Positions 3,026 through 21,370 of a stretch of DNA of 29,022 bases are shown here, piece after piece. The stretch comes from an uncultured Lachnospiraceae bacterium (GTDB lineage Bacteria > Bacillota > Clostridia > Lachnospirales > Lachnospiraceae): assembly GCA_902783305.1 (NCBI GenBank), contig CACZQU010000502.1:1-29022 (forward strand), written 5' to 3'. Every line of letters starts with the position of its first letter. The first letter of the stretch is position 1. Under the pieces are notes generated by a model. The model was not told where the DNA came from and did no database searches. It saw only the letters and a list, made by a program, of their open reading frames with translations. The position numbers were made by a program, and so were the translations under genes.

Positions 3026-3296
3026 TGTGAATCTCCTCCTTTGTGTAAATAACTGAAACTGTGTGTAAAGCAACATGTATGTGAGATAACTGCCCATGGG
3101 CCGTTTCTCCGATAACACTGCGGCAAGATACGGATAACAGACTGCTTATGCAGATATACAGGATCAATTCTCACTGACTGCGGCGCGGCAGATGAGGATT
3201 CAGACCGGCAGGATGCATGTGCAGCTGATAAACGTGCCTGACTACAGCGCTGTTGCCTGCTGTACCTGTAACTGTCCAGTCAAGCTGAACCGTTAC

Positions 3297-3959: not shown

Positions 3960-3960
3960 C

Positions 3961-4983: not shown

Positions 4984-5294
4984 AGTATTCCTCTCATCTG
5001 CCAGAGCAGGTTTATCTCTGACCTGGAACCGTTTAAGATGCCGGTTCCGTAAACCGCGCTCTGCGGCTTCAGACAGCACCCGGCTCATCCGAAAACGCAG
5101 ATACGGGATCAGGCAGCAATTACCGGATCATCCGGCCGGCTGCCAATTTCCTGCAAATTCCGGATTGTATTGGTCAAAACCATATGTTAGTATATATACG
5201 TTTATGAATCTGCATCTGTCCGTTCTGTCCGGACAGCGGCAAAGTTTTTCAGCAATCATAAATACAATGACCAGATTTTAATGGAGATATTTTC
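4984..5294. other. Divergent intergenic region between metN and degV
   Basis: This 311-bp stretch carries the promoters for the metNIQ operon (minus) and degV (plus). I checked for a SAM (S-box) riboswitch and a Met T-box in the metN leader and saw neither the S-box core nor a T-box TGG-ACC-GCG sequence. The A+T-rich centre (around 5180-5205, including TATATATA-like sequence) is the likeliest promoter zone. On the plus strand TTGGTC, then 17 bp, then TATATA is a possible but weak degV promoter. A palindrome cluster is listed separately at 5216-5236. Confidence 0.5.
5216..5236. promoter_or_regulatory. Operator-like palindrome CTGTCCGGACAG with a half-site
   Basis: The 12-bp perfect palindrome CTGTCCGGACAG (5225-5236) is preceded by a direct half-site CTGTCCG (5216-5222), so the region can also form a 7-bp stem with a 7-nt loop. 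It lies about 60 bp upstream of the degV start, downstream of the A+T-rich promoter zone. Binding by a dimeric repressor is an inference; no matching regulator is encoded nearby. Confidence 0.35.
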
Positions 5295-7541: not shown

Positions 7542-8243
7542 TCAGGATTTCTTCTGATCCAGGCGGCTGTAGGGATCCGTCATCCGCGCGGCTTCATAGA
7601 TCAGCGCATTTATGACGGCAACCGCGGCTGAGGTTCCTCCCTTCCTTCCCCTTCCCACGATATAAGGAATATGATATGTACGGCAGCAGCGGAGGATTTC
7701 TTCTTTTGCTTCCGTGACATTGACAAAGCCTACAGGGATCCCGATGACCAGGGATGGCGTATAGCCCTGCCTGATCTGTTCCGCCAGCTCCACGAGTGCC
7801 GTAGGCGCGTTTCCGATGACAAAAACCGCTTCCGGCAGAAGACCGGCTGCCTTCCTGACGGCGAAAGCCGCCCTGGTTTTTCCGGTTTCCCTGGCCTGAT
7901 TTTCCACCTCCGGGTCGGTCATGTAGCAGTAAACACCGGCTCCAAGCTTTTTCAGTCCGCTCTGGCTGATCCCGGCCCGGGCCATATTGGTATCTGTACA
8001 TACAGGCCTTCCCTGCTGCAAGGCCTTCACTCCTTCAGAGACTGCCTGTGGGGAAAAGACCAGATTCTGTGCATAATCAAAATCCGCTGTCGCGTGAATC
8101 ACTCTCTTCAACACCATCATCTCATCCGGAGGGAGAACCGTTTTTCTGAGATTCAGTTCTTTTTCAATGATCTGTAAGCTTGCAGCTTCAATCCCGGCCG
8201 GATGAGTCAGCCATATCCGCTCTTCTCTTTCTTTTTTCTCCAT
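7542..8243 (-). CDS. cbiC: Cobalt-precorrin-8 methylmutase CbiC
   Basis: Moves the methyl group from C-11 to C-12 of the corrin ring to give cobyrinate in anaerobic cobalamin synthesis. The 233-residue protein has the family signature VIHATADFDYA, with the catalytic His at residue 50, followed by TDTNMARAGIS and the C-terminal GNAPTALVEL, IGIPVGFVNVTEAKE and GRGRKGGTSAAVA motifs. Some CbiC proteins are about 210 residues; the extra length here is the charged N-terminus. GAGAGG lies 6 nt before the start. It is the last gene of the operon, 9 bp after cbiP. I saw no clear terminator behind it before the sortase. Confidence 0.95.
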   Translation of the reverse strand: MEKKEREERIWLTHPAGIEAASLQIIEKELNLRKTVLPPDEMMVLKRVIHATADFDYAQNLVFSPQAVSEGVKALQQGRPVCTDTNMARAGISQSGLKKLGAGVYCYMTDPEVENQARETGKTRAAFAVRKAAGLLPEAVFVIGNAPTALVELAEQIRQGYTPSLVIGIPVGFVNVTEAKEEILRCCRTYHIPYIVGRGRKGGTSAAVAVINALIYEAARMTDPYSRLDQKKS

Positions 8244-8252
8244 TTTTTCCTC

Positions 8253-9719
8253 TCAGGACCGGTCCATCGCTGTTTTCCGGATCATTTCCATATCCAAAGC
8301 CTGGCGGACCGCGTCCGCCAGCAGATCCAGCTGACGTTCCTGCCAGGCTTCATGGTCGAAGGTATCTTCCTGAAGGGCCGGCATTCCCTTCCTTTCCAGC
8401 AGCCATCCGGCCAGGCGGTTCACCACGGTTCCTGAATCAAAAAGCCCATGCAGGTATGTTCCATACACTGTGCCTTCCGTCGTCCCTTCCTCCCGGTTTT
8501 CCCCGGGAAGGGCAAACGGGGTTCCCCGGTGTCTTGTCGTCTGTCCCATATGAATCTCGTACCCCTGTGCGCTGCATCCTGCAAAGGGTTCCGGGAGAAG
8601 CAAGGCATTCACACGGGCAAGTCTTTTTTCCCGGGTAAAGACGGTTTCGCATCCCAAAAGACCCATGCCTTTAAGCTCTCCGCCGTTCTCCACTCCTTCC
8701 GGATCGGAAATTCTTTCCCCAAGCATCTGATAACCGCCGCAGATTCCCATGACAGGTGTACCGCCCGCAGCTTTTCGGCAGACAGCCTCCTCCAGTCCGG
8801 TTTCCCGCAGCCAGATCAGATCCTTCATCGTATTTTTTGTTCCCGGCAATATGATCAGGTCCGGGTCTTTGAGCTCCCTTGCATGCTTCACCGGCCGCAC
8901 ATCAAGGGCGCTGTGCCGGGAAAGCGGCGCGAAATCCGTCTCATTGGAGATTCTGGGAAGACGGATCAGCGCGATGTCAATCGGTTTTGACGCCCTTCGA
9001 TCCCTCCTCTGGGTCAGAGAATCCTCCTCGTCGATATCCACATCCAGGTAAGGGATCACGCCGATGACCGGAATCCCGGTTTTCTCCTTCAGCATGGCCA
9101 GTCCTGGCTCAAGAATTGCGGCGTCTCCCCGGAATTTATTGATGATCAATCCTTTGATCCTCTGCCGGTCCCGGGGCAGCAGAGCAACCGTCCCATACAG
9201 CTGCGCAAAAACCCCGCCTCTGTCAATGTCTCCGACCAGCAGCACCGGAGCGTCCACCATCCGGGCCAGTCCCATGTTTACGATATCTCCTTCCATGAGA
9301 TTGATCTCCGCAGGGCTGCCCGCGCCTTCGATGACAATAACGTCATATTTTTCTTCCAGCCGGCGGTAAGCTGCCATAATTTCGGGAATCAGGCTCTTTT
9401 TCATTCGGAAATAGTCAGCTGCCCGGTAATGTCCCCATGCTTTCCCGTTGACAATCAGCTGGCTTTGCGTATCTCCGGACGGCTTTAACAAAACCGGGTT
9501 CATATCCGCGTCCGGAAGGAGTCCCGCGGCCTGCGCCTGCACCGCCTGTGCTCTTCCCATCTCCCGTCCGTCCGGTGTCACGCAGCTGTTCAGGGACATG
9601 TTCTGGCTCTTGCACGGAGCCACACACAAGCCGTCCTGATGAAGGATCCGGCACAAAGCCGCCGCAACCAGGCTTTTTCCCGCTCCGGACATGGTCCCCT
9701 GAATCATGATGTTTCCCAC
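8253..9719 (-). CDS. cbiP: Cobyric acid synthase CbiP
   Basis: Glutamine- and ATP-dependent amidation of the b, d, e and g side chains of adenosyl-cobyrinate a,c-diamide. About 488 residues with an N-terminal dethiobiotin-synthetase-like domain (MIQGTMSGAGKS P-loop, CKSQNMSLNS, EGAGSPAEINL, VGDIDRGGVFA) and a C-terminal class I amidotransferase domain (Cys327 in MGICGGYQMLG, His424 in YGTYLHGLFD). I chose a GTG start at 9719: it gives MGNIMIQGT, matching family N-termini, and has GGAGG 7 nt upstream. The internal ATG at 9707 is a fallback, and the frame is open to 9791. The start overlaps the end of cobD by 16 bp. Confidence 0.95.
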   Translation of the reverse strand: MGNIMIQGTMSGAGKSLVAAALCRILHQDGLCVAPCKSQNMSLNSCVTPDGREMGRAQAVQAQAAGLLPDADMNPVLLKPSGDTQSQLIVNGKAWGHYRAADYFRMKKSLIPEIMAAYRRLEEKYDVIVIEGAGSPAEINLMEGDIVNMGLARMVDAPVLLVGDIDRGGVFAQLYGTVALLPRDRQRIKGLIINKFRGDAAILEPGLAMLKEKTGIPVIGVIPYLDVDIDEEDSLTQRRDRRASKPIDIALIRLPRISNETDFAPLSRHSALDVRPVKHARELKDPDLIILPGTKNTMKDLIWLRETGLEEAVCRKAAGGTPVMGICGGYQMLGERISDPEGVENGGELKGMGLLGCETVFTREKRLARVNALLLPEPFAGCSAQGYEIHMGQTTRHRGTPFALPGENREEGTTEGTVYGTYLHGLFDSGTVVNRLAGWLLERKGMPALQEDTFDHEAWQERQLDLLADAVRQALDMEMIRKTAMDRS

Positions 9720-10804
9720 CGGTGTACCTCCTTCATCGCCTGAATCAGCCTGCGGTTTTCCGCAGGCCGGCGGACCGCGGCCCGGTACCACCCCTGACCC
9801 AGGCCGGAAAACCCGCTGCAGTCCCGGATCTCAATTCCCTGCCGGGCAAGACCCTCAGTCAGTCCTCTTACCGGGTCATAAAACAGCAGATAATTGGCTT
9901 CCCCGGAAATCACGCGGCAGCCAAGGGTCTTAAGCTCCCGGATCAGCTTTTCCCTTTCTGCCCGGATCAGGCGGCGCAGCCGCTTAGCATACCGCAGATC
10001 CCCGGCTGCGCCCTCTCCCGCCGCCTGGGCAGGAAGAGATACCGGCCAGGGCTGTCCTGCCGCCTTCATCCTCCCAAGCAGCTCCACATCCGCCGAAGCG
10101 CACCAGCCAAGCCTCAGACCCGCCATCCCGTGAAATTTCGTGAATCCCCGCAGAACGACCACCGGGTAATCACAAAGGCTCCCCAGCATCGTATGCTTTT
10201 CCGGCTCATCCAGGAAATCAGCAAAGCATTCGTCGACAAGCAGCAGGATATTTTTTCTGCGGCATTCCTCCGCAATTCTTTTGAGCAGCTCCGGCCTGGT
10301 GGTCAGGCCTGTAGGATTGTTCGGCTCACAAAGAACCAGAAGCTCCAGATCCTCCGAAATCTGATCCGGCAGATCCTCCCCGACTCTGAAATCCGACTTT
10401 TCGCTCAGCGGATATTCCCTGACCACGGCTCCGGCTCTTTCCAGGGAGCGGCGGTATTCTCCGTATGCCGGAGCCATAATCATGGCCGCTGCCGGGCGGA
10501 CAGCCAGTGCCAGGCGGTCAATCAGATCCCCCGCCCCGTTCCCGCAAAGGATCCATTCCTTCTTTATTCCATAAATCTCAGCCAGCTTCTCCCTGAGACT
10601 GTCACATCCCGGGTCCGGGTATCTTCCGGCCTGACCCAGGCTGCGGGCCGCAGCCCTTTTCGCCCTCCGGCTCATGCCCAGAGGACTGACACTGGCAGAG
10701 AAATCCAGAGGTTCTCTCCCGTATCGATCCATGAAGCTTTTCCAGTCCCCGCCATGCTCTGCCAGGGAACGGTTTTCCGGCTTTACCGGAGCGTCCAAAG
10801 CCAT
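9704..10804 (-). CDS. cobD: L-threonine-O-3-phosphate decarboxylase CobD
   Basis: PLP enzyme of the aspartate-aminotransferase fold that makes (R)-1-amino-2-propanol O-phosphate, the linker CbiB attaches to cobyric acid. About 366 residues. Visible features are DFSASVSPLG near residue 34 (substrate loop), CGNGAGDLIDRLA, CEPNNPTGL, the PLP aspartate in LLVDECFADF, and the PLP lysine K223 in RGFTKFHGMAGLRLG. It begins at the ATG at 10804, with GGAGGG 5 nt upstream. It overlaps cbiB by 22 bp and cbiP by 16 bp. The CobC name is used for the same family in aerobic organisms. No kinase PduX is seen here to supply threonine phosphate. Confidence 0.92.
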   Translation of the reverse strand: MALDAPVKPENRSLAEHGGDWKSFMDRYGREPLDFSASVSPLGMSRRAKRAAARSLGQAGRYPDPGCDSLREKLAEIYGIKKEWILCGNGAGDLIDRLALAVRPAAAMIMAPAYGEYRRSLERAGAVVREYPLSEKSDFRVGEDLPDQISEDLELLVLCEPNNPTGLTTRPELLKRIAEECRRKNILLLVDECFADFLDEPEKHTMLGSLCDYPVVVLRGFTKFHGMAGLRLGWCASADVELLGRMKAAGQPWPVSLPAQAAGEGAAGDLRYAKRLRRLIRAEREKLIRELKTLGCRVISGEANYLLFYDPVRGLTEGLARQGIEIRDCSGFSGLGQGWYRAAVRRPAENRRLIQAMKEVHRWETS

Positions 10805-11757
10805 ATCATCCCTCCGCGTACCACACACAACGCAGTCAGTCCCAATACGCTTGCCAGAACCGTCAGATGGCAGGCTCTGGGAATATCCTCAGCCCGGGCC
10901 TCCCTGCCCGGCATACCCAGAACAGGATGCATATGGGCAGCCCCTCCATAAAAGACCATTCCCCCCAGACAGATTCCGAGCGCGCCAGCCATCGCCGCCT
11001 CCGTCTGGGCGGAATTCGGACTGTCATGCTTTCTCCGGTCTCTTTTCCAGACCTCCAAAGCCCTGTGAGGATTCTCCCCGCCCATAAACGCGGCAGCCAC
11101 AATCAGCAGGGCGGCTGTTCTGGAGGGCAGGAAATTCGCCAGGTCATCCACTCTGGCAGCAGCCCGTCCGAAATACAGATACCGCTGATTCCGGTATCCG
11201 ATCATGCTGTCCATGGTATTCACCGCTTTATAGCAAAGAGCCAGAGGAGCTCCTCCCAGCATCAGGAAGCATAGCGGAGCAAACACCCCGTCAGTGAAGT
11301 TTTCTGCCACCGACTCCACTGCAGCCCGGGCCACCTCCTGCGCGGTAAGATTCTCTGTATCTCTCCCCACTATCCTTGCGACAGCGCTCCTCGCATCGGT
11401 CAGCGTCCCCGTCTGCAGCTTCCGGAAAACATTCTCTCCTTCACTGATCAGTCCGCGCAAAGCCAGGCATTGCCAGCCCCACATCAGGGCAATGGCAGTC
11501 CGAAGCAGCGGATGGATCCGGCCGGCAAGCAAAAGCGTCCCCAACGCCCCGAGCCAGGTTCCCCCCGTCATGAGCGCGGCAAGACAGATTCCTGCTGCCT
11601 TCTCCCCTGCATCGGTCCTGGGAAAAATCCCGCGCAGCAAAGGCTCCAGGAAAGTGATGACTCGTCCCATAAGGACAACAGGATGGGGAAATTCCGCAGG
11701 ATCCCCGATAAAGGCATCCAGCCCGAAAGCGGCCAGAGCGAGTGCGATGGTCTTCAT
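10783..11757 (-). CDS. cbiB: Adenosylcobinamide-phosphate synthase CbiB
   Basis: Membrane enzyme joining aminopropanol phosphate to adenosylcobyric acid. About 324 residues with several hydrophobic helices. Family motifs are the N-terminal FGLDAFIGDPAEFPHPVVLMG, GRDTENLTAQEVARAAVES, VAENFTDGVFAPLCF and the YKAVNTMDSMIGYRN segment, then RVDDLANFLPSR and the PNSAQTEAAMAGALGI motif. The ATG at 11757 has GGAGG 9 nt upstream and overlaps the stop of the short CobU-like gene as ATGA, a strong sign of translational coupling. A longer basic N-terminus in the open frame (up to 11907) is not family-like. Confidence 0.95.
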   Translation of the reverse strand: MKTIALALAAFGLDAFIGDPAEFPHPVVLMGRVITFLEPLLRGIFPRTDAGEKAAGICLAALMTGGTWLGALGTLLLAGRIHPLLRTAIALMWGWQCLALRGLISEGENVFRKLQTGTLTDARSAVARIVGRDTENLTAQEVARAAVESVAENFTDGVFAPLCFLMLGGAPLALCYKAVNTMDSMIGYRNQRYLYFGRAAARVDDLANFLPSRTAALLIVAAAFMGGENPHRALEVWKRDRRKHDSPNSAQTEAAMAGALGICLGGMVFYGGAAHMHPVLGMPGREARAEDIPRACHLTVLASVLGLTALCVVRGGMIWLWTLR

Positions 11758-12161
11758 CTGCCGCTTCCTCCGTCTGTTCTGCAGGCTCCCCCTGCTTCCG
11801 GCACATCCCGTATTCCGCTTCCGTCCGCCGGGAGAGTTCCTTTGAGCACCTGTGCTATTCCGCAGCACACTCTCACCACGGTTTGGGCCCTTTGTGCGAG
11901 CAGACAAGCCAGTTTTCCTGCCCTCTCCCTGAAAAGACGTTCCCCTGGATCCGCCGGAACGATGCCGCCTCCCACCTCCTGTGCAATCACCACAGGATGG
12001 GCTGACAGCATCAAGGCCAGCTCCTCCAGATCCTCATGCTCTGCCGCCATCTTCTGCACATCCCATACGGCCGATCTCTCAAAGCACTCTTCGTCCCATC
12101 CCATCCAGGAGCAGACCCATTCCTTCTTTCCCGAAAACGCCGGTCCGGTCACAAAAACCAT
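11754..12161 (-). CDS. Short CobU-like protein (cobinamide kinase-type P-loop)
   Basis: The 135-residue protein starts with a P-loop, FVTGPAFSGKKEW, and has the CobU/CobP C-terminal signature IAQEVGGGIVPADPGERLFRERAGKL, ending with CCGIAQVLKG. It lacks the middle segment of normal CobU (about 175-185 residues), including the RHxxR region. In the Salmonella enzyme the guanylylated His lies in that region. A complete CobU is encoded two genes upstream at 12983-13498. The likely role is phosphorylation or another partial step in nucleotide-loop assembly, but activity is uncertain and it may be a diverging duplicate. GGAGG precedes the start, which overlaps cobS by 13 bp; the stop overlaps cbiB by 4 bp. 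The intact frame and good signals argue against a pseudogene. Confidence 0.7.
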   Translation of the reverse strand: MVFVTGPAFSGKKEWVCSWMGWDEECFERSAVWDVQKMAAEHEDLEELALMLSAHPVVIAQEVGGGIVPADPGERLFRERAGKLACLLAQRAQTVVRVCCGIAQVLKGTLPADGSGIRDVPEAGGACRTDGGSGR

Positions 12162-12928
12162 CCATTTCCTCCCATTCTGCCGATCTCCTCAGACAGCACC
12201 ATCGCAGCCAGCATCCACAGCTCCGACATCTGCACAAACCATCCGGCCAGATCTCCGGAAATTCCGCCAAAGCCGGGAACCAGACAATACCGGTACCAGA
12301 CGAAGACCAGCACCGCAGCACTCACCATCAACAGCTCTCCCGAAAGAACCATAGCAAGAGCCGAGGCGGCTGCCGCCGTTAAGCAGATTCCCAGAACCAT
12401 TTTCTTCTCCGCGCTCTCCGCAAACATTCTCACCAGTCCGCTTCCCCTGGCAACGGGAAAAGAAGCGACAGCGATTGCTGACAGGCTCCTGCTGAGCACA
12501 TATCCCCCAAGCACAGGGGCCGCCCGGTATTCCTCCAGGACCGTCCAGAAGACAAATTCCTCGAGAAGCATCGCCGCCATTTTCCATGCGGCAAAGGATC
12601 CGATATGAGGATCGTTCAGAATTTCTCTCTTTTTCTCCGGACTTCCATGACTGGCCAGCGCGTCCCAGGTATCGCAGCATCCGTCCAGATGAATCCCGCC
12701 CGTGACAAAGAGCGGGATCAGACACAGGCCAAGGGCACGCAGCATCGGCGGCGCCTGTATCCATCCGCATCCAAAGACCCAGACCCCGCTCAGGCACCCG
12801 ATCACCACGCCCACCAAGGGAAACGCGGCAAGCATCCCCTTCAAGGCGGAACGATCCCAGTCAGGCTGAGGAACAGGAATCACGGAAAACATGGAAAACG
12901 CAGCAAAAACAGACTGAAGCACCTTCAT
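12149..12928 (-). CDS. cobS: Adenosylcobinamide-GDP ribazoletransferase CobS
   Basis: Final step of nucleotide-loop assembly: joins alpha-ribazole (phosphate) to AdoCbi-GDP in the membrane. About 259 residues with multiple hydrophobic helices. Motifs are GGIHLDGCCDTWDAL (residues about 77-91, the Asp-rich metal site), the following ILNDPHIGSFA, and the C-terminal GGISGDLAGWFVQMSEL. The ATG at 12928 has AAGGAG 8 nt upstream; an in-frame GTG 9 bp earlier is too close to that site. It lies 54 bp after cobU and overlaps the short CobU-like gene. Confidence 0.94.
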   Translation of the reverse strand: MKVLQSVFAAFSMFSVIPVPQPDWDRSALKGMLAAFPLVGVVIGCLSGVWVFGCGWIQAPPMLRALGLCLIPLFVTGGIHLDGCCDTWDALASHGSPEKKREILNDPHIGSFAAWKMAAMLLEEFVFWTVLEEYRAAPVLGGYVLSRSLSAIAVASFPVARGSGLVRMFAESAEKKMVLGICLTAAAASALAMVLSGELLMVSAAVLVFVWYRYCLVPGFGGISGDLAGWFVQMSELWMLAAMVLSEEIGRMGGNGWFL

Positions 12929-12982
12929 CACGCACACTCCTTGCAGCCCGGCCAGGGCTGTAACGCTGCCTGGCTGATCTTT

Positions 12983-13498
12983 TCAGTTCCCGGGAGCTTT
13001 TTTCAGCCAGTTTACCAGCCCGCAGACCACCTCCGCAACCTGATCCGCTTCCCTTGCCATCTCCCGGTTCAGCATTGCCAGCTCCTTCATATATTCCAGT
13101 GTCAAAGCGCTGTAAGCGAATCCGGAGGAGAACACCTCGTTGGTCACGATGGTCAGATGCAAAGCATTCTGCTTCAGGTGTCGTACGGCTTCCCTTACAG
13201 CCTGTACGCCTCCTCCGTCCTCCCTGAATTTCTCGTTTGCCAGCAGATTTCCCATGCACTCCAGAAGGACGTTGCTGCCGGCAGGAAGGGAAAGCTCCGC
13301 GCCATGGCAATAGCACTCGATGGTCTCAAAGCCTTTCCCGGATCTCATCTGCTGATGCCTGGCGATCCGGCGCCGGCTCTCCTCACCCCATGGCTCCATT
13401 GTCGCAATATAGATCCGCTTTCCCTCCAGCAGGCAGACCAGCTGCTCCGCAAAAGCGCTCTTGCCGCTGGCAGAGCCTCCGTAGACCAAGGTAAACAT
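12983..13498 (-). CDS. cobU: Adenosylcobinamide kinase / guanylyltransferase CobU
   Basis: Phosphorylates adenosylcobinamide and transfers GMP to it. About 171 residues, normal length. Features are the N-terminal P-loop VYGGSASGKSAFAE, YIATMEPWGEE, and RIARHQQMR with the RHxxR motif and His48, the candidate guanylylation site. Next come LLECMGNLLANE and VTNEVFSSG, with the C-terminal MAREADQVAEVVCGL. The canonical NEVGxGIVP is altered here to NEVFSSGFAYS, while the short paralogue keeps the GIVP form, so the two proteins have complementary deviations. The start could also be an in-frame GTG at 13507, closer to an AAAGGG; I prefer the ATG since MFTLVYGGS matches the family. Confidence 0.88.
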   Translation of the reverse strand: MFTLVYGGSASGKSAFAEQLVCLLEGKRIYIATMEPWGEESRRRIARHQQMRSGKGFETIECYCHGAELSLPAGSNVLLECMGNLLANEKFREDGGGVQAVREAVRHLKQNALHLTIVTNEVFSSGFAYSALTLEYMKELAMLNREMAREADQVAEVVCGLVNWLKKAPGN

Positions 13499-13529: not shown

Positions 13530-14603
13530 TTACTGCCATTTGTGATAAGCCTCGATTCCCAGATGCTCAAAGGTATGACCGCTGTGGTAGACGCTCAGCG
13601 CAAGATCCAGAAACGCCAGACCTGCCAGGGCACCCGTCCCTTCTCCCAGCCGTAACCCGGCCTTCAGCGGTGCCTCCAGCTCCAGCTCCTTCAGGAGTCT
13701 GGCCGCGGCAGGCTCGGCAGACTGATGGCTGCCCAGAAGGGCAAAACGGCAGCCGGGACAAAGCCTTACCGCGCACAGGGCAGCCGCCGCCGTAATCAGT
13801 CCGTCCAGCAGGACAGGAACCCGGTAATAAGCGCCGCCCAGACAGATCCCGCAAAGCCCTGCCAGATCCAGCCCTCCGACCTTTGCCAGCACATCCACCG
13901 GGTCGGAAGCATCCGGCCGGTTCACGCGGATTCCCTCTTCGATCGCCTTTATTTTCCTGATCAGACCCTCGCTGGAAAGACCGGCTCCCGGCCCTGCCAA
14001 TGCAGACGGAGCTTCGCCCAGCAGTACGCTTGCCACCGCGGCAGAGGTAGTCGTATTGCCGATCCCCATCTCCCCGGCCAGCACAATGGATACCTTTGCC
14101 TTCTTTCTTTCCCTGACCAGCCCGATCCCCGTCAGAATCGCCTGAAGGCAGGCCTGGCGGCTCATTGCCGCCCGGAGGGTAAAATCAGCTGTTCCTTCCT
14201 GTACACTTCTGTCAGCTACTCCCGTCAGCGGTGGATGAGCCTCCATTCCGATATCCACGGGAATCACCCTGCAGCTGACCGCCCGTGCCATATGGCAGGC
14301 TGTACTGGTTCCCTGACCAAGCGCGGCCGCCACAGCCCGCGTCACACCAGCGTCCGACTGACTGACTCCCTGCGCCGTTACGCCGTTGTCTGCGCACAAT
14401 ACAAGGAGCTCTCTGCGGCTCAGCTCTACCTGAGGGGTTCCCTGGATACCGGCGATACGGATTACTGCCCTTTCCAGCATCCCCAGGCTTCCCAGCGGCT
14501 TGGCCAGGCTGTCCCACCTGCAGGCAGCTTTTTTCATCGCCTCCTCATCCGCCGGCTTCATATCATCAATGAATTTCTCCAGTCTCAACCTTTCCTGGAC
14601 CAT
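13530..14603 (-). CDS. cobT: Nicotinate-nucleotide--dimethylbenzimidazole phosphoribosyltransferase CobT
   Basis: Activates the lower-ligand base as its alpha-riboside 5'-phosphate. About 357 residues, standard length. Motifs are DSLAKPLGSLGMLE, LCADNGVTAQGVSQ, the GEMGIGNTTTSAAV phosphate-binding loop (about 178-191), GLDLAGLCG, GSHQSAEPAA and the LRLGEGTGALAG motif with the predicted catalytic Glu321. The ATG at 14603 is chosen; the upstream ATG at 14615 directly abuts a GGAGG, too close to use it. The start overlaps the end of cbiA by 19 bp. No base-biosynthesis genes (bza/bluB) are visible, so the lower ligand cannot be predicted. Confidence 0.94.
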   Translation of the reverse strand: MVQERLRLEKFIDDMKPADEEAMKKAACRWDSLAKPLGSLGMLERAVIRIAGIQGTPQVELSRRELLVLCADNGVTAQGVSQSDAGVTRAVAAALGQGTSTACHMARAVSCRVIPVDIGMEAHPPLTGVADRSVQEGTADFTLRAAMSRQACLQAILTGIGLVRERKKAKVSIVLAGEMGIGNTTTSAAVASVLLGEAPSALAGPGAGLSSEGLIRKIKAIEEGIRVNRPDASDPVDVLAKVGGLDLAGLCGICLGGAYYRVPVLLDGLITAAAALCAVRLCPGCRFALLGSHQSAEPAAARLLKELELEAPLKAGLRLGEGTGALAGLAFLDLALSVYHSGHTFEHLGIEAYHKWQ

Positions 14604-15994
14604 CTGTCCGCCCATCCTCCTGCCGCTTCGACAAAGCGCTTTGCCAAAGGCAGTTCCCCGTCCAGATACAGATGGGGAAACCCGGCATACAGCCTGTCAT
14701 TCACAAAACCACACCTCCAGCTGCGTCCATCTTCCTTCACCGACAGCAGATCTGTTCCGGGAGCCGTACTGTCCCAGTAATGGAATTCATGAACCGGGAT
14801 CCTTTCTCCCTTCTTAAGCAGCATGCTGTCTCCGTCCGCTTCCAGCCAGGAATAGCCAAAGCGGACCAGATGACCGGTTCGAAATCCCTTCCCTGGCAGC
14901 ACTCCTGTCATCTCCCAGGTCCCGCCCTCTTCATCCTGAAGGGATTGCTGCAGATACAGAAATCCACCACATTCCGCAATCGTGGGCAGCCCCGACCTCA
15001 CGGCCTCATGAACCGAACGGAGCATCGGGCGGTTCTGCGCCAGCTTACGGGCGTACAATTCGGGATATCCTCCTCCGAGATACAAGCCGTTGGCCGCAGG
15101 AATTTCCCTGTCGCGAAGAGGGCTGAAATAAACCAGCTCCGCCCCGCACTCTTCAAGCTTTTCCAGACTTCTATGATAATAAAAGCAAAACGCCTCATCC
15201 ATAGCCACGGCAATCCGGATCCTGCCGGCTCTCCGGTGGTCAGAAGCACCGGAGAGCTTCTCCCCGTCCTTCGGATATCCACTTTTCCTTGTCTTTTTTA
15301 TCGGTTCCCCGGAAGGCCTGGCGCCATCTTCCATCCATTCCAGCAGCCAGTCCAGATCCGTTGTTTTCTGCAGCTCATCAGAAACCCGGCGGATCCGCTC
15401 CTCAAATGCCCGGACCTCCTGCGCTGTCACAAGCCCCAGATGCCGGCTTTCCAGCTTTGCTTCCTCCATCTCCGGGAGAAAGCCAGCCACCCGGATTCCG
15501 GTTTCCTTCTCCAGAAGAGGCTTCAGGTACGCATATAACGACGGACGGCACCGGGTCAGAAATACAGCCCCGATCTGATCCGGCTTGCGGAATTCCCGCA
15601 TCCCGCGGATCTGGGCAGCCAGGGTCAGACTGCTCCCACCGGGCTTCACGGCCAGCAGCACAGGAAGCTTTTCCCGGACGGCCAGCTCAAAAGCGCTCGC
15701 CCTGGTAGTCGTTCCTCTCCCGTCATAATAGCCCATCGCGCCCTCCACCACGGCGACATCTGCCTTTTGCCCGGCCAGCAGACGGTGAGGTCCGTCCTCT
15801 CCCTGAAGAAAAGGATCCAGATTATCCCCTGAAGCCCCCAAAGCGCGCCGGTGAAACATGGGATCAATGTAATCCGGCCCGCATTTGAAGCTTTGCACAC
15901 TATACCCTTTCTGCCGCAGGGCATCCATCAGAGCACACGAAAGGATGGTTTTCCCGGCTCCGCTCTCCATCGCCGTAATCAGAATCCGTTTCAT
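14585..15994 (-). CDS. cbiA: Cobyrinate a,c-diamide synthase CbiA
   Basis: Glutamine-dependent amidation of the a and c carboxylates of cobyrinate. 469 residues with an N-terminal ATPase domain (P-loop AMESGAGKTILS, CGPDYIDPMFH, VEGAMGYYDG, KPGGSSLTLAAQIRG) and a C-terminal amidotransferase domain (YLGGGYPELYA, Cys342 in IAECGGFLYL, VHEFHYWDS with the catalytic-type His). A poorly conserved charged linker of about 40 residues around 225-258 joins the two halves. The start at 15994 begins MKRILITAMES, as in other CbiA proteins. An AAAGGA lies rather far upstream, so the ribosome site is weak. It follows cbiET after 39 bp. Confidence 0.95.
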   Translation of the reverse strand: MKRILITAMESGAGKTILSCALMDALRQKGYSVQSFKCGPDYIDPMFHRRALGASGDNLDPFLQGEDGPHRLLAGQKADVAVVEGAMGYYDGRGTTTRASAFELAVREKLPVLLAVKPGGSSLTLAAQIRGMREFRKPDQIGAVFLTRCRPSLYAYLKPLLEKETGIRVAGFLPEMEEAKLESRHLGLVTAQEVRAFEERIRRVSDELQKTTDLDWLLEWMEDGARPSGEPIKKTRKSGYPKDGEKLSGASDHRRAGRIRIAVAMDEAFCFYYHRSLEKLEECGAELVYFSPLRDREIPAANGLYLGGGYPELYARKLAQNRPMLRSVHEAVRSGLPTIAECGGFLYLQQSLQDEEGGTWEMTGVLPGKGFRTGHLVRFGYSWLEADGDSMLLKKGERIPVHEFHYWDSTAPGTDLLSVKEDGRSWRCGFVNDRLYAGFPHLYLDGELPLAKRFVEAAGGWADRWSRKG

Positions 15995-16033: not shown

Positions 16034-17242
16034 TCACCATGAAATCAGAAAGACCGGATTATTCGCCAGGAGAAGATGAAGCTCCCCGGCCTGCCGGGTC
16101 TTAGAGACCGCAATCTGGCAGATCTGCGGGGTTTTCCTTTGTTTCTGCGCCCATGTAAGCGCCGCATGTACCGTTTCCAGGGCGATGGCGCTGACCACTA
16201 CTCTCGCTTCGGGTGCAGCAGCCCGGACGGCATCAAGGATTTCCTCCAGCTTTCCTCCGCTTCCTCCGACAAACACGGCATCCGGCACCGGCAGCTCTTT
16301 CAGCCGGCATGGTGCCTCCCCCTGCACGATGTGCAGATTCCAGGCGCCGAAATGCTCCCGGTTTTTCCGGATCAGCTCACAGGCTTCCGGCTTTCTTTCC
16401 ACCGCCCAGGCCTCCCTTGCCCATAATGCCATTTCCACCGCTACGCTTCCTGTCCCTGCGCCGATATCCCAGCATATGTCCTCCTGCTTCAGGGACAGCT
16501 TCGACAGAACCGCTGCCCGGATCTCCTGCTTGGTCATCGGGATATCTCCCCGGATCCATTCTTCATCCGGGATGCCCGGTGTCCGGTTCCTGGGAAGCAT
16601 ATCTGCCTCAGCTTCAATCAATAAAACATTCAGGGGGGCAAACGCTTCTTTGGCCATCTCCCGGGCTTTACCCTCACGGATTCTTTCCTCAGGACCGGAA
16701 AGAAGCTCGCCGGCTGTCACCCTGCAGTCTCCCAGTCCTGCGTCACTCAGATTCCGGCAGATCTGCGCTGCTTCCTCTCCTCCTCCGGTCAGCATGAAAA
16801 CCGGCTTTCCTGCCGACAAGGCCTTAAGCAGATCGCATTTCCTGCCATGGGCAGAGAGCAGCGTCCAGTCCTGCCAGGATTTTCCCAGTCTCGCGGCAAA
16901 AAGCTGAAGGCTGGAAATTCCGGGAATCACCTCCAGCTGTACCGGCTTCCCGAAACCAGGATCCGGCTCCTTCAAGGCCGCAAGCAGTCCAGCCGCTCCG
17001 GAATAAAAGCCCGTATCCCCGCTGAACAGAACGACAGCGCTTGTACAGCCGGAAGCGTTCAGCTTCTCCTTAATCCGTAAAGGATCGACAAGCACACATT
17101 TCTCTGCCTGACAATCTGTGGGCAGACCCTCCAGAAGCCTTTGGGAACCGATCACCAGCCCGGCATGCTTTACCGCCTCTATGGCACGAGGCACCATCAT
17201 TTCTGTTTCTCCCGGTCCCATCCCGGCCAGTGTAATCTTCAT
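16034..17242 (-). CDS. cbiET: Fused cobalt-precorrin-7 C5-methyltransferase / precorrin-6B C15-methyltransferase-decarboxylase (CbiET)
   Basis: Fusion of the CbiE and CbiT activities, 402 residues. Residues about 1-205 are a tetrapyrrole (class III) methyltransferase: LAGMGPGETEMMVPRA, VLFSGDTGFYSGA, VIPGISSLQLFAARLG. From about 220 the CbiT part begins near GIPDEEWIRGDIPMTKQEIR and contains the SAM site WDIGAGTGSVAVE, then AVFVGGSGGKLEEIL. Together they methylate C-5 and C-15 and decarboxylate the acetate at C-12. This fused order equals CobL of aerobic organisms. The start overlaps the stop of the NEAT-like gene as ATGA, so the unusual secreted protein gene and this pathway enzyme are translationally coupled. 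Confidence 0.95.
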   Translation of the reverse strand: MKITLAGMGPGETEMMVPRAIEAVKHAGLVIGSQRLLEGLPTDCQAEKCVLVDPLRIKEKLNASGCTSAVVLFSGDTGFYSGAAGLLAALKEPDPGFGKPVQLEVIPGISSLQLFAARLGKSWQDWTLLSAHGRKCDLLKALSAGKPVFMLTGGGEEAAQICRNLSDAGLGDCRVTAGELLSGPEERIREGKAREMAKEAFAPLNVLLIEAEADMLPRNRTPGIPDEEWIRGDIPMTKQEIRAAVLSKLSLKQEDICWDIGAGTGSVAVEMALWAREAWAVERKPEACELIRKNREHFGAWNLHIVQGEAPCRLKELPVPDAVFVGGSGGKLEEILDAVRAAAPEARVVVSAIALETVHAALTWAQKQRKTPQICQIAVSKTRQAGELHLLLANNPVFLISW

Positions 17243-19335
17243 GCTTCTCCCTTCACCTTATGGAGAAATACCATTTCTCTTTCCTGCTCTTTTCCGGTAA
17301 ACACTGCTCTCATGTCCAGAACCATATCCGCAATCCCGGCAGCCTGCTGAAACAGATTTTTTCCCACACACCAGACGTTTCCTTCCTTTACCGCCTTAAA
17401 CCGGGAAAGAAGCGGGTTCTTTCCGGTCAGATCGTCAATGGTATGAATCTCACCGTCAATGGTGCTGTTGTAAATCAGAATGTCGGCATCCCTGGCAGCT
17501 TGATAAAAGCTTTCCATTTCCATGCTCATCAGAGAGCCTGTCGTCCCGTCCTCTTTTTCCTCTTCCAGAAAATACGTTCCTCCCGCCATGCGGACCATTT
17601 TCGCGACATAATCGCTTCCGCTTCTCACCTCAGCGTACCCATTCGGACTGAGATAAAAAACCGCAGCTGTTTTTCCCGTGGGCTCTGCCTCCTCCAGGGA
17701 GGATAATTCAGAGACCTTCTTTGAAAAAAAATCTTCTGCCTCCTCCTCTTTTCCGGCAAGCAGTCCATACAGCCGGATCCACTCCAGCCTTCCAAGAGGA
17801 TCCGGCTCGTAGCTGGATCTCTCCACGAGGACCGGAATACCCAATGCTTCGAGACGTTCTCTGGTCTTCGGGCTGTGGTAAATCATCGTGGATTCGATCA
17901 CGAGATCGGGTTTTTCGGTAAGAATCCGTTCATAATCCGGGGTATTGTATTTTCCCACATAGGTAAGGCTCCCTTCCTCAAGCGCCTCTTTTACCGGCTC
18001 GAGGCTCCAGTCTTCGGCCTTGGTACTGGTCATTTTCACCAGATCCAGCGCGTCCAGATTCCGGAAAAAATCCATGGCGGAGGAGGCGGCAAGGTAAATG
18101 CTGCCGACCGGCTGTTGAAGCACCACGACGTCTTCTTCCAGACCGGCAGGAGGCTGAGCTCCTTCAGGCAGGAGAAGATAGCGGTCTGTCTCACCGATCG
18201 TGATCCAGCATAAACCATCCTCCTCTTTCTCCATCTGAAACTGCGTCGCATAGAGCAGGTTCACCCTGTCTGCCTGGTCATTTTGTTTAGGGAAGCAGGA
18301 AGACTCTTCCACAGCCTTCTCCCTGCTGCCATCTGAGGATTGAGCGCTTTGGTCATTTTTCTGAGCGGGATTCTCCTCCTGCCCATTTTCTTCAGAGCCG
18401 GGATCCTCTGCGAAATTATCCTCTGCAGAATCCTTTTCCGGAGCAACGGAAAATTCCCCCTCCTGTTGAAGGGAGGAGGAATCAAAATACAGGGTGTATT
18501 CTATTTCGTGAGGAACGCTCATTGCCGTCGTATCCGCCAGCACCGAAAGCGGGCAGTCAAATCCGCTTACCGGAATCAGAAACGTGGAATTTCCGTCCTG
18601 ATTCACCGGATCGAAGCGGGTGCCGTCCACCTTCATGTAATCATAACGTGAACTGCTCCATTCTATGCGGGCAAAAGCCTTCCCGTCCTTTACCGTCAGG
18701 CTGGCCGGAGTCGCGACGCCGGCTCTCCCGGAGCCTCCCTCCAGTGAAACCTCGACACGGTAATCCCCGTCTGCCAGTCCCAGGCTTTGTACCGTAACGA
18801 CCTTCTTTTCCCGGAAAGCCCCGGCAGGCAGGGACGAGGAGCGGAAAACCAGGAGACGGTCATACCACATCTCCTTCCTGCGGCTGTATGCCGCACAGGA
18901 AACCGCCTGGTCCAGCGCCTCCACCGGAATCCGGAAAATGCCGTTGCCCTCCGGACTTTTCTCCGGGCTGATCCACTCCGATCCGGAAGCATGAGCCGCT
19001 TCCTCACCGGTTCCCATAAACAGATACGCGAAGGAATCGCTCCCCATCCTCAGCTCAGCCTGCATCGTTCCGTTTTCCACAGTCAGCGTACAACCGTCTA
19101 TCCGGAACATCGAAGAATTGCTGTCAACCGTAATCTCATAGCTTCCTTCCTGCAGATCCTCAGCTTTGACCGGTAAAAGTCCCTCCAGATCCAGCTCGAC
19201 GCCCGGTGCCATGTCAGAAGCCTCTGCCACCCTGGAGGACGCCTCCTTTTCCCCTGCAGAGGTGTATCCTGCTTCCGTCAGGAGCGCACCAGTCAGTACT
19301 GCGGCTGCAAGGCAAAGCGTCAATCGGTTTCTCAT
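17239..19335 (-). CDS. Secreted protein with two NEAT-like domains and a metal/porphyrinoid-type substrate-binding domain
   Basis: About 698 residues. A signal peptide MRNRLTLCLAAAVLTGALLT leads to two related beta-rich domains, about 60-170 and 178-288. Each has the NEAT-type pattern: xGSYEITV or DGDYRVEVSL, then LTVKDGKAFARI, a KVDG turn, an FRIPVEALD or FLIPVSGFD strand, and a closing YDRLLVF or EYTLYFDSSSL. An acidic Gln/Asn/Glu/Ser linker follows (about 290-358). A helical-backbone periplasmic-binding domain (about 359-680) contains DLVIESTMIYHSPKTRERLE, GIPVLVERSSYEPDPLGRLEWI and the C-terminal GKNPLLSRFKAVKEGNVW. That is the BtuF/FhuD/FepB type, which binds cobalamin, haem or siderophores. 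There is no lipobox, LPXTG or C-terminal helix, so it may be released. The start at 19335 has GGAGG 6 nt upstream. No ABC permease or ATPase lies beside it. The ligand is inferred only. Confidence 0.8.
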   Translation of the reverse strand: MRNRLTLCLAAAVLTGALLTEAGYTSAGEKEASSRVAEASDMAPGVELDLEGLLPVKAEDLQEGSYEITVDSNSSMFRIDGCTLTVENGTMQAELRMGSDSFAYLFMGTGEEAAHASGSEWISPEKSPEGNGIFRIPVEALDQAVSCAAYSRRKEMWYDRLLVFRSSSLPAGAFREKKVVTVQSLGLADGDYRVEVSLEGGSGRAGVATPASLTVKDGKAFARIEWSSSRYDYMKVDGTRFDPVNQDGNSTFLIPVSGFDCPLSVLADTTAMSVPHEIEYTLYFDSSSLQQEGEFSVAPEKDSAEDNFAEDPGSEENGQEENPAQKNDQSAQSSDGSREKAVEESSCFPKQNDQADRVNLLYATQFQMEKEEDGLCWITIGETDRYLLLPEGAQPPAGLEEDVVVLQQPVGSIYLAASSAMDFFRNLDALDLVKMTSTKAEDWSLEPVKEALEEGSLTYVGKYNTPDYERILTEKPDLVIESTMIYHSPKTRERLEALGIPVLVERSSYEPDPLGRLEWIRLYGLLAGKEEEAEDFFSKKVSELSSLEEAEPTGKTAAVFYLSPNGYAEVRSGSDYVAKMVRMAGGTYFLEEEKEDGTTGSLMSMEMESFYQAARDADILIYNSTIDGEIHTIDDLTGKNPLLSRFKAVKEGNVWCVGKNLFQQAAGIADMVLDMRAVFTGKEQEREMVFLHKVKGEA

Positions 19336-19367
19336 CCTTCTCCTCCCATCGTCCATACCTTTCCGTA

Positions 19368-20309
19368 TCATTCCGCCAGACTGTCAATTGCCGCCTGCGC
19401 ATGCTCCACATAGAGCTTCCGGACCGGCTCCATCTCTCCCAGCCCTTTCAGCACCGGAATCACTTCATAGCCCTCCGCCTCAAATATGCTCTTCCAGGAG
19501 TCTTCATCCTCTCCCGCCATATCATTATTGGCGTGGTCTCCGGCAACCACCATCAGCGGTTCAAGCACGACGCGGGTATATTCTCCCTCCTTCACCAACG
19601 CAAGAACATCCTCCAGGGCAGGCTCCGCTTCCACTGTGCCGATGTAATAATGCTCATATTCATCGCGGAAGAGCTCCTGGAGCTTTGCGTAAATACCATT
19701 GGAATCCGCCTGAGTTCCATGTCCCATAAACACGATCGCCGTACTGCCGTCATTATATTCCGCTGCCGCATCCGTCACCGCCTGCGCCACCCGGGCAAAA
19801 TCTTCCTCGTCCGAAAGCAGAGGTTCTCCGACAGCAACCCGTTCAAAGGCATCCGAAAACTCCGCCACCTCATCCACCAGATCATGGTATTCATATCCAT
19901 CCATCAGGTGGGTCGGCTGTACGACCAGCTGCCTTACTCCGTTGTCCGCCGCCCTCTCCAGGGCTTCCTTCACATTGTCAATAATCTCTCCATCTCTGTC
20001 CTTTACATGATCGATAATGATCTGGCTGGTAAAGGCACGCCTTATGCTCCAGTCCGCAAACGCCTCCTCCAGCTCCTCTTCGATCGCGCCGATGGTCAGA
20101 CGGCGGCTGTCATTGTAGCTTGTTCCGAAGCTGACGACCAGCAGCTCCTTCTCCCCGATTCCGTCTTCATTACGGGGATCGTCCAGAGAAGCGTCACCTG
20201 TCTCCTGGTTTTCTTCTTCCTGCGCGGCAAATGCGGGGGATGCCCCTTTCATAAATCCTGCCGCCAAAAAAACAGTCACAGCCAAAGCCCATAAACAGAT
20301 ATTTTTCAT
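19368..20309 (-). CDS. cbiK: Exported CbiK-type sirohydrochlorin cobaltochelatase
   Basis: About 313 residues of the class II anaerobic cobalt chelatase family. The mature part starts near LLVVSFGTSYNDSR (about 57-70) and has FTSQIIIDHVK, QPTHLMDGYEYHD, FMGHGTQADSN (His197) and the C-terminal VVAGDHANNDMAGEDEDSWK (His259). These are the two metal-liganding His positions of CbiK. An obvious Sec signal peptide (MKNICLWALAVTVFLAAGFM, then ASPAFA with an AxA cleavage site) means the enzyme is exported. That is odd, because sirohydrochlorin is made in the cytoplasm. Exported CbiK forms are known (CbiK-P of Desulfovibrio, reported to bind haem). The start at 20309 has AAAGGAG 8 nt upstream; the open frame extends to 20492 without family resemblance. 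It is the first gene of the operon. Confidence 0.9.
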   Translation of the reverse strand: MKNICLWALAVTVFLAAGFMKGASPAFAAQEEENQETGDASLDDPRNEDGIGEKELLVVSFGTSYNDSRRLTIGAIEEELEEAFADWSIRRAFTSQIIIDHVKDRDGEIIDNVKEALERAADNGVRQLVVQPTHLMDGYEYHDLVDEVAEFSDAFERVAVGEPLLSDEEDFARVAQAVTDAAAEYNDGSTAIVFMGHGTQADSNGIYAKLQELFRDEYEHYYIGTVEAEPALEDVLALVKEGEYTRVVLEPLMVVAGDHANNDMAGEDEDSWKSIFEAEGYEVIPVLKGLGEMEPVRKLYVEHAQAAIDSLAE

Positions 20310-20468
20310 GTCAGTCTCCTTTTCATGGTTTTTCGTTACGATGTTCAGCCCTGCGCAGCAAGTCGGAAAAGCGCGGAAAGCGCGGATTTCAAATGATGAA
20401 AGATAAAGAGCTGAATCGCAGCTGTTTTTCTCCGTCAGTCCTGGATTCAGGCAAGAAAAGCAAAAGAG

Positions 20469-20503
20469 CGGTTCTCTGACTGACAAAGTCAATCAAAGAA
20501 CCG
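20469..20503. repeat. Strong imperfect hairpin in the cbiK leader (REP-like)
   Basis: A 16-bp stem (14 Watson-Crick pairs) with a 3-nt loop: CGGTTCTCTGACTGAC / GTCAATCAAAGAACCG on the plus strand. The two mismatches become G-U pairs on the minus strand, so the RNA of the cbiK leader would fold better. The flanking GGGACGGTTCTTTGATTG resembles intergenic palindromes I remember from other Clostridia, but I cannot verify that here. It has no proper T-run, so it is not a clean terminator. It lies about 160 nt upstream of the cbiK start and within the transcript predicted from 20563-20591. Other than this hairpin the 250-nt leader shows no cobalamin riboswitch core. Confidence 0.6.
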
Positions 20504-20562
20504 TCCCTTAAAATGACTATACCGTATCCTGATTAACCCTGACTGAACTATAGCCGCCAGTC

Positions 20563-20591
20563 AGTATACCACCATTTTCTCCTCAGGACAA
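20563..20591 (-). promoter_or_regulatory. Sigma-A-type promoter of the cobalamin operon
   Basis: Minus-strand TTGTCC (-35, 20586-20591), exactly 17 bp, then TATACT (-10, 20563-20568). Transcription would start near 20556, giving a leader of about 250 nt before cbiK. Just downstream, CTGACTG and CAGTCAG form a 7-bp inverted repeat with a 12-nt loop (20540-20565), which overlaps the -10 and could be an operator. Confidence 0.6.
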
Positions 20592-20596
20592 GGTTT

Positions 20597-21370
20597 CTAC
20601 AAGGAAAAATCCCTGCGTCTCTTTCCTCTTTTCCTCCGGAAATTCATCAGAAATGCCACTCCCTGCGAATCTCCTTCCCCCGTGAGATCATCCAGAATCT
20701 GGTCAAAATTGGTTTCCAGATAAGCTTCATAGGTATGTCTGGCCTCTGTGGACAGTCCGTAGGGAAACCTCAGTCTCGCGCTCACCAGAGCACCCAGAAA
20801 TCTTCTGTTTTCCTGTCCCAGAGCATAGGGAAACCGATTATCATATTCGGAAAACTGCAGTTTTCTGGACACAAAGCAGTTCCGGTACAGCAGTCCGCTC
20901 CCGTGGGTATGGGATTCGATAATCCGGGCAGGGGTATTTTCAACTCCTTCTTCATAAAACTCAGGAAACCAGAGAACCGCTGTTTCCAGTCCTGCGCGGT
21001 ATTCGACCATCAGCTCCTCCGGAACCTCCATCAGAACATCTCTGAGCCCGGAAATCTCTTCCCCCTCAAAGTCGATTCCGATTCTGCGGATCCGATGGCA
21101 GCCGGTAAAAGCGCCGGCTCCAAAATCCATAAGACCGTTCCAGAAATGAAATTCTTCCAGGGCATTGCACTGATACAGGGCGTATTTCCCCATTTTCCTT
21201 ACGGTAGACGGCAGAGAAAGGGCCGTAATCTTCGAACCGGCAAAGGCATAATCCCCGATCTGCGTTACCGCACGCCCTGCGATCGCAGAAGGTACCTCCA
21301 CCCTTCCTTCCCGGATCCCGCAGCCGGTGATCCGGAGCCCGCCATCCCGGGTTAATTCATACTCAACCAT
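20597..21370 (-). CDS. BspA-type leucine-rich-repeat protein
   Basis: About 257 residues, no signal peptide or membrane segment, so probably cytoplasmic. Residues about 25-100 carry LRR_5 (BspA/TpLRR) repeats: VPSAIAGRAVTQIGDYAFAG, then ITALSLPSTVRKMGKYALYQ, then a degenerate LEEFHFWNGLMDFGAGAFTG. The remaining 150 residues contain RKLQFSEYDNRFPYALGQE and LDDLTGEGDSQGVAFLMNF and end in a basic FRRKRGKRRRDFSL tail. I recognise no catalytic motif there. The ATG at 21370 is chosen over an in-frame start at 21442 because the latter would begin inside the repeat at 21431-21492. It lies divergent to the VWA and MoxR genes and may form a functional group with them; that is inference. Its role is unknown. 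Confidence 0.75.
   Translation of the reverse strand: MVEYELTRDGGLRITGCGIREGRVEVPSAIAGRAVTQIGDYAFAGSKITALSLPSTVRKMGKYALYQCNALEEFHFWNGLMDFGAGAFTGCHRIRRIGIDFEGEEISGLRDVLMEVPEELMVEYRAGLETAVLWFPEFYEEGVENTPARIIESHTHGSGLLYRNCFVSRKLQFSEYDNRFPYALGQENRRFLGALVSARLRFPYGLSTEARHTYEAYLETNFDQILDDLTGEGDSQGVAFLMNFRRKRGKRRRDFSL

Follow-up and report, generated by a model that had tools for sequence, protein, structure and literature searches.

A CbiK-type chelatase with an export leader and a NEAT/binding protein in a cobalamin operon: components of a candidate tetrapyrrole uptake module of gut Clostridia

A chelatase and a NEAT/binding protein head the operon

The 29,022-nucleotide stretch of DNA that was analyzed (the window) is contig CACZQU010000502.1, positions 1 to 29,022 of the forward strand, of assembly GCA_902783305.1, from an uncultured Lachnospiraceae bacterium. 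It holds a cobalamin operon on the minus strand (the strand of all features given below) that begins at 20309 and whose first two genes encode a CbiK-type chelatase and, next, a protein combining two NEAT-type domains with a substrate-binding domain (the NEAT/binding protein). The latter gene is joined by an ATGA overlap to cbiET, which is followed by cbiA, cobT, cobU-like, cobS-like, cbiB, cobD-like, cobQ and cbiC. We found that the pair is the outer half of a module of four components, exported CbiK, NEAT/binding protein, FecCD permease and ATPase, which is broader, and more telling, than could be seen from the window alone. An initial annotation of the window had described the pair as two exported proteins from tetrapyrrole-handling families and had suggested, as an unproven idea, that they capture haem or a corrinoid outside the cell and insert or remove its metal. 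Gene order, export signals, the NEAT and binding folds, the riboswitch in relatives and the presence or absence of pathway genes were computed here.

The exported class II chelatase (313 aa, 19368..20309) contains a full-length CbiK domain (19386..20150; PF06180, 275.3 bits, model positions 1-261 of 262), and scored 242.2 bits on the NCBIfam cobaltochelatase equivalog, below the cut-off of 400. Its second-best relative in the PDB is FetB (1.1e-46), which we take to be the same protein as IhtB of Porphyromonas gingivalis. Two residues, H134 (19908-19910) and H259 (19533-19535), which are presumably the catalytic histidines as in Salmonella CbiK, are kept in 74 and 75, respectively, of the 75 aligned module CbiKs. 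The predicted Sec signal peptide covers residues 1-28 (20226..20309), with a cleavage site between AFA and AQ that was placed by eye. Such a leader was present in 72 of the 73 module loci where the CbiK match was long, either with a lipobox (62) or as another hydrophobic leader (10), and the remaining CbiK was cut by the contig end; leaders and lipoboxes were called by simple rules of our own rather than by a trained predictor, and the score was ambiguous in one locus (L235, genome G066). None of the eight second, non-module CbiK copies inspected carried such a leader; four further second copies (in G066, G069, G072 and G086) were judged by frame length only. Considering the appearance of leaders across the relatives, the CbiK of the window looks truly exported. 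The explanation of its leader as a false start was dropped, because lipoboxes recur in the relatives. Residue 101 (20007-20009) also separates the two groups: 72 of 75 module copies have a His here, as against none of seven leaderless ones (5 Lys, 2 Ile). This His is a possible additional metal or ring ligand.

Three unusual arrangements of CbiK were observed. In locus L022 (7423-9381) one long frame with a single lipoprotein leader holds two tandem CbiK domains and precedes the NEAT/binding gene, and in L036 (5798-7678) a leaderless CbiK followed by an extra NEAT-pair match adjoins a full module. In G066 (contig C7, 64916-66376) CbiK and CbiL matches share an open frame of 561 residues, likely a CbiK-CbiL fusion.

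The NEAT/binding protein counts 698 aa (17239..19335) from its likely start at Met13, which is encoded at 19335 and preceded by a strong Shine-Dalgarno sequence; the longer frame begins at 19371. A probable signal peptide without a lipobox, ending at TSA before GE, was recognized by eye (19255..19335). It is followed by a probable first NEAT-type domain (residues 75-178, 18838..19149), a second NEAT domain (residues 197-302, 18466..18783) with H288 and Y292, a linker predicted to be disordered (residues 307-366, 18274..18453; predicted local distance difference test score, pLDDT, below 50) and a type III substrate-binding domain (residues 375-704, 17260..18249). The modelled C-terminal domain has the Peripla_BP_2 fold of the BtuF/FepB type III binding proteins and resembles BtuF as well as others. 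As this domain filled the list of the fold search with the whole model, which was thus uninformative on the NEAT part, the NEAT pair was folded alone, and the predicted structure then matched the NEAT beta-sandwich fold. The claims of export and family membership are in this way borne out, as far as leaders in both proteins and predicted folds can tell. On PF05031 the window protein reached 12.7 bits against a gathering score of 32.8. A precomputed PF05031 annotation is present on 25 of the 120 homologues listed.

NEAT domains classically bind porphyrins, and those that bind haem have an axial Tyr-x-x-x-Tyr motif. The presumed axial position 288 is a His in 37 and a Tyr in 7 of 44 sequences, and Tyr292 is found in all 44 (positions placed by eye). 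Seven same-genus relatives (G001, G002, G006, G010, G013, G014 and G022) have frames of ~870-1490 aa with several NEAT-like matches near the gene for the binding protein; these are possibly multi-NEAT surface receptors.

Conservation of a four-component module

The loci of relatives were taken as the best 80 of 592. A cbiK gene lies directly upstream of the NEAT/binding gene in 72 of the 76 loci with room for it, a FecCD permease gene lies downstream in 69 of 73, an ATPase match above 150 bits occurs in 70 of 80, and corrin operon genes are nearby in 37 of the 52 long loci. The survey of gene neighborhoods thus confirms the pair that had been proposed, but reveals that it makes up only half of a four-component importer. 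The module is present in gut genera, including one Faecalibacterium prausnitzii genome. The metagenome-assembled genome (MAG) to which the window belongs (2.99 Mb, 614 contigs, 82% complete) has its sole FecCD match on a separate small contig (C568), followed by an ATPase in one open frame with CbiD. Such a single ATPase-CbiD frame was seen in three loci (L082:2260-3534, L025:12863-14776 and L079), including those of this genome and of F. prausnitzii, where it is 637 aa long with a CbiD match of 398.5 bits. The fusion of the importer ATPase to the corrin-ring methyltransferase CbiD is strong evidence that the importer and corrin synthesis share one purpose.

A second connection is provided by gene regulation. 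A cobalamin riboswitch (RF00174) was found 5' of cbiK in 23 of the 27 relatives' loci scanned (7/7, 6/7, 5/6 and 5/7 in four batches), among them 14 of the 15 loci that stand alone, having at least 14 kb of sequence but no more than one kind of corrin gene. Linkage to corrin synthesis, previously based on the ATGA overlap, is therefore strong and general, in view of the conserved operon, the riboswitch in relatives and the ATPase-CbiD frame.

Corrin and tetrapyrrole genes in the genomes that carry the module

We assessed 27 genomes, the window's own MAG and 26 of relatives. The latter were those of the 15 stand-alone loci plus 11 picked by hand (ten with the module beside corrin genes and one short contig, L019). 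All 26 contain corrin-ring genes; CbiD was found in 25, and the exception (G073) has CbiL. In 14 of the 26, and in the MAG, no CbiK other than the exported one was found. No separate CbiX was seen in the 27 genomes, where the PF01903 matches fall on the CbiK genes, and CbiM was not found in 18 of 27 (other cobalt transporters were not searched for).

HemB is missing in 14 of the 27 genomes, ten of which also lack both HemC and CobA; no other genome lacks either of these two. These ten (the MAG, G067, G070, G076, G078, G079, G080, G082, G085 and G086) include F. prausnitzii ATCC 27768 (G078) and the complete genome GAM79 (G079). With the early genes absent and CbiD present they fit the description of a tetrapyrrole precursor salvager, the MAG, at 82% completeness, only tentatively. 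CbiL is missing in nine of them (all but G086) and CbiM was not found in six. Family models were used to scan for corrin genes beyond CbiD in L189 (G076), L025 (G078) and two genes of L187 (G079). In this way, CbiF, CbiG, CbiH, CbiJ-CbiE-CbiT, CbiD and CobQ were clearly retained in G076, CbiF, CbiG, CbiJ and CbiD in G078, and CbiH and CbiJ-CbiE-CbiT in G079. All ten salvagers carry a predicted surface chelatase, capture domain of tetrapyrrole type and importer.

Four genomes with HemC and CobA but no HemB (G061, G062, G063 and G075) were not counted as salvagers; in G061, G062 and G075 HemC and CobA share a frame of 802-837 aa. The absence of HemB may reflect porphobilinogen salvage or assembly gaps.

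A second CbiK occurs in none of the nine genomes without CbiL versus 12 of the 18 others (Fisher p 0.0011, with kinship ignored and the table compiled by hand from the gene-presence results; p 0.0022 without the MAG). CbiL was counted as present in G061 (162.5 bits, cut-off 163.25) and in G072 (a fragment scoring 41.9 bits at the edge of a contig), and the second CbiK of G086 is weak (113.3 bits).

Other genes of the window

The remainder of the operon consists of cbiET (16034..17242; CbiE and CbiT both above cut-off), cbiA/cobB (14585..15994), cobT (13530..14615), a cobU-like gene (12983..13498; 93.7 bits, under the cut-off of 161), a cobS-like gene (12149..12937; TIGR00317, 89.5 bits, under 110), the cbiB frame (10783..11907), of which the true start is probably at ~11757, a cobD-like gene for threonine-phosphate decarboxylase (9704..10828; 274.7 bits, slightly under 290.55), cobQ (8253..9791; 636 bits) and cbiC (7542..8243). 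Upstream of cbiK lie a strong hairpin (20462..20508), likely the terminator of the preceding gene, and a gene for a leucine-rich-repeat protein. Outside the operon, 2204-5088 (minus strand) encodes a MetNIQ-like ATP-binding cassette (ABC) transporter, with an NlpA lipoprotein (274.5 bits) and a permease and ATPase recognized by eye. The membrane gene at 1522-2097 (minus strand) looks by eye like BioY or an energy-coupling factor (ECF) component; an NCBIfam search with it gave no match at E <= 1e-20.

Interpretation and alternative explanations

Very probably, the module is an exported importer that handles tetrapyrroles or corrinoids and serves B12 metabolism. What it would import is argued from the salvagers: cells with none of the steps through CbiL, no inner CbiK and often no CbiM, which nevertheless keep the later enzymes, need an external cobalt-containing ring. 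Judged from gene content, the reading with most support is that the module feeds the corrin pathway, and we lean slightly towards the view that the module supplies ring and/or cobalt to corrin synthesis. We infer the substrate, the direction of the metal reaction and the transport as follows. The NEAT pair, secreted or lipid-anchored, would capture a tetrapyrrole outside the membrane, exported CbiK would put cobalt into the captured ring or swap its metal, and the binding domain would pass the ring with its cobalt on to the permease (FecCD) and ATPase, after which this complex may enter corrin synthesis at the stage of cobalt-factor II or later. Genomes without cbiL would probably import a ring that is methylated at C20 (the level of cobalt-factor III), or an enzyme of another kind would take care of the C20 step. 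Where the cell makes the ring itself, the module would add to that synthesis; it would be the sole route in genomes missing hemB, hemC, cobA, cbiL and an inner CbiK. As a whole, this account, in which gut Clostridia take up a tetrapyrrole through a B12-linked module and load cobalt outside the cell, is evenly poised between right and wrong, and the exact outside loading by CbiK is put forward tentatively. A still more specific version, in which cobalt insertion for B12 occurs outside the cell, surface CbiK loads a salvaged isobacteriochlorin, the NEAT-ABC system imports it and F. prausnitzii-like salvagers build corrinoids by cross-feeding on ring intermediates from producers, is possible but rather doubtful; the isobacteriochlorin may then be sirohydrochlorin, a siroheme-derived ring or 20-methyl factor III. 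For the proposal of capture and metal chemistry in the initial annotation this means that the part on an outside chelatase gains support, while haem as the target loses it, given the control by B12 rather than iron in relatives.

Several observations weigh against the feeding of corrin synthesis by an imported ring. Its weakest point is the loss of CbiL, which demands an external ring already methylated at C20. The module is not limited to salvagers, as 17 of the 27 genomes have hemC and cobA, and CbiM is present in four of the ten salvagers (weakly in G079). The early genes are missing from the MAG, which is 82% complete. In full genomes the early genes and cbiK-cbiL often adjoin, so that a single deletion could take out several together. 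Kinship is a further concern: in a CbiD tree of 25 genomes (G070 and G073 left out) the salvager state needs at least four changes, of which two are forced by well-supported branches, and a test of independent pairs for the loss of CbiL yielded three pairs on starred branches, too few for significance, with on average 2.3 in the same and 0.0 in the opposite direction. In this tree the MAG, which fills 38% of the columns, clusters with three salvagers at a support of 86/63. The riboswitch was lacking in four of the scanned loci (L007, L010, L072 and L076). The window itself contains no cobalamin riboswitch at the gathering score, and at E <= 1 the region 20200-20800 gave only matches to microRNA families, which trace the hairpin. 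The CbiKs of L007 and L010 resemble that of the window (65% identity) and likewise have a plain signal peptide. Finally, some CbiK relatives (FetB, 9b86) are described as haem-binding.

The strongest competing explanation is import of corrinoids (B12, cobinamide) by a system like BtuFCD, with the NEAT pair and exported CbiK simply binding corrinoid at the surface. We consider this unlikely but a serious contender, as the riboswitch in relatives, the resemblance of the binding domain to BtuF among others and the score of the ATPase on the model for corrinoid ABC ATPases (166.9 bits, below the cut-off of 537) all agree with it. The near-invariant catalytic-type histidines of the module CbiKs and the classical role of NEAT domains as porphyrin binders argue against it, and so does the occurrence of corrin-ring genes in all 26 genomes of relatives, since non-producers should benefit equally, although these genomes were sampled via similarity to a corrin-operon protein. 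In favor of corrinoid import are also reports that a B12 element accompanies cbiK and btuCDF in Desulfovibrio (PMC545781) and that cobamide importers are common even among producers (PMC6461909).

Alternatively, the tetrapyrrole could be a shuttle (cobaltophore) from which the cell gains cobalt and not the ring. B12 control, the 18 genomes in which CbiM was not found and the module's presence in ring-making genomes would suit such scavenging, but it is improbable because it leaves unexplained the ten genomes that keep CbiD without hemB, hemC and cobA. Ordinary haem-iron uptake is unlikely because B12, via the cobalamin riboswitch, controls the module in relatives. For acquisition of haem or iron by de-chelation at the surface, as proposed for IhtB, we see a quite small chance: the predicted NEAT fold, the closeness in sequence of FetB and the view that IhtB removes iron from haem (PMC10913741) are outweighed by the riboswitch in 23 of 27 loci, the corrin neighbors in 37 of 52 and the ATPase-CbiD fusion. 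Haem uptake as the chief role was set aside on the riboswitch and the company of corrin genes. That CbiK is an ordinary pathway enzyme, with a leader that is unused or an export that is incidental, is very improbable. It would fit the genomes where the module CbiK is the sole one, but lipoboxes in 62 of 73 loci, eight second copies without such a leader and the exported partners that always adjoin the module CbiK speak against it.

The module is a concrete candidate for feeding the retained corrin pathway in bacteria without tetrapyrrole synthesis. If this is true, the count of full B12 producers includes some gut genomes that do not belong there, and a common pool of ring intermediates would exist in the gut.

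Comparison with known systems

The Isd-type haem relay is iron-regulated and includes haem-degrading enzymes. Like the module, it has a NEAT fold that feeds a type III binding protein and a FecCD-type importer; unlike Isd, the module is B12-controlled in relatives and has a chelatase and, at the position presumed to be axial, a His or Tyr. In Desulfovibrio, D. vulgaris reportedly has two functional CbiKs (a finding ascribed to Lobo, 2008). Similar to the module, a B12 element lies over cbiK-cbiL and btuCDF in the Desulfovibrio CbiK-P/btuCDF system (PMC545781) and a cobalamin riboswitch near cbiKP in O. alaskensis (PMC11124144), but the parts of these accounts at hand mention no NEAT protein.

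The Iht system of P. gingivalis comprises the IhtA receptor, IhtB/FetB as a CbiK-like lipoprotein and the ABC importer IhtCDE, and thus likewise places an exported CbiK homologue beside a FecBCD-type importer (binding protein, permease and ATPase). It differs in its Gram-negative host with an outer-membrane receptor, and the available sections of two papers name no NEAT domain and treat the system as haem/iron or Mn-porphyrin chemistry (PMC10913741, PMC13402209). More explicitly, IhtB is thought to strip iron from haem (PMC10913741, PMC13227078) and FetB is described as a chelatase that produces Mn-porphyrin (PMC13402209); P. gingivalis is said to lack the steps leading to precorrin-2 (PMC6461909). 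HmuS of gut Bacteroidota, a protein of a chelatase family that harvests metal from haem (PMC12583661), is comparable in this respect, but it is CobN-like, and that of P. gingivalis is reported to have no similarity to CbiK (PMC13227078). In Dehalobacter restrictus, an operon responding to corrinoid starvation combines BtuCDE-type transporters with a CobN cobaltochelatase (PMC4285132).

Tetrapyrrole precursor salvagers were defined by Shelton et al. (2019) as a group of 180 species, mostly Firmicutes, for three of which the use of 5-aminolevulinic acid was shown; no uptake system is named in the portion of that account consulted (PMC6461909). The ten genomes found here resemble these salvagers in lacking early genes and having corrin-ring genes, but nine of them also lack cbiL. 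A review puts precorrin-2 salvagers at 0.6% (PMC8123684), and a rumen organism with corrin genes and BtuFCD but without early genes was classed as a cobinamide salvager (PMC12654859). F. prausnitzii A2-165, a different strain from the ATCC 27768 included here, was the only strain of one study that did not grow well when cobalamin was omitted (PMC7360928). Searches of the open-licence literature turned up no account of a module that joins NEAT, CbiK and an importer, nor of a connection between such a module and salvagers. The module could provide a common frame for CbiK-P of Desulfovibrio, IhtB/FetB of Porphyromonas and the exported 'cobaltochelatases' of gut Clostridia, which resemble ordinary pathway enzymes.

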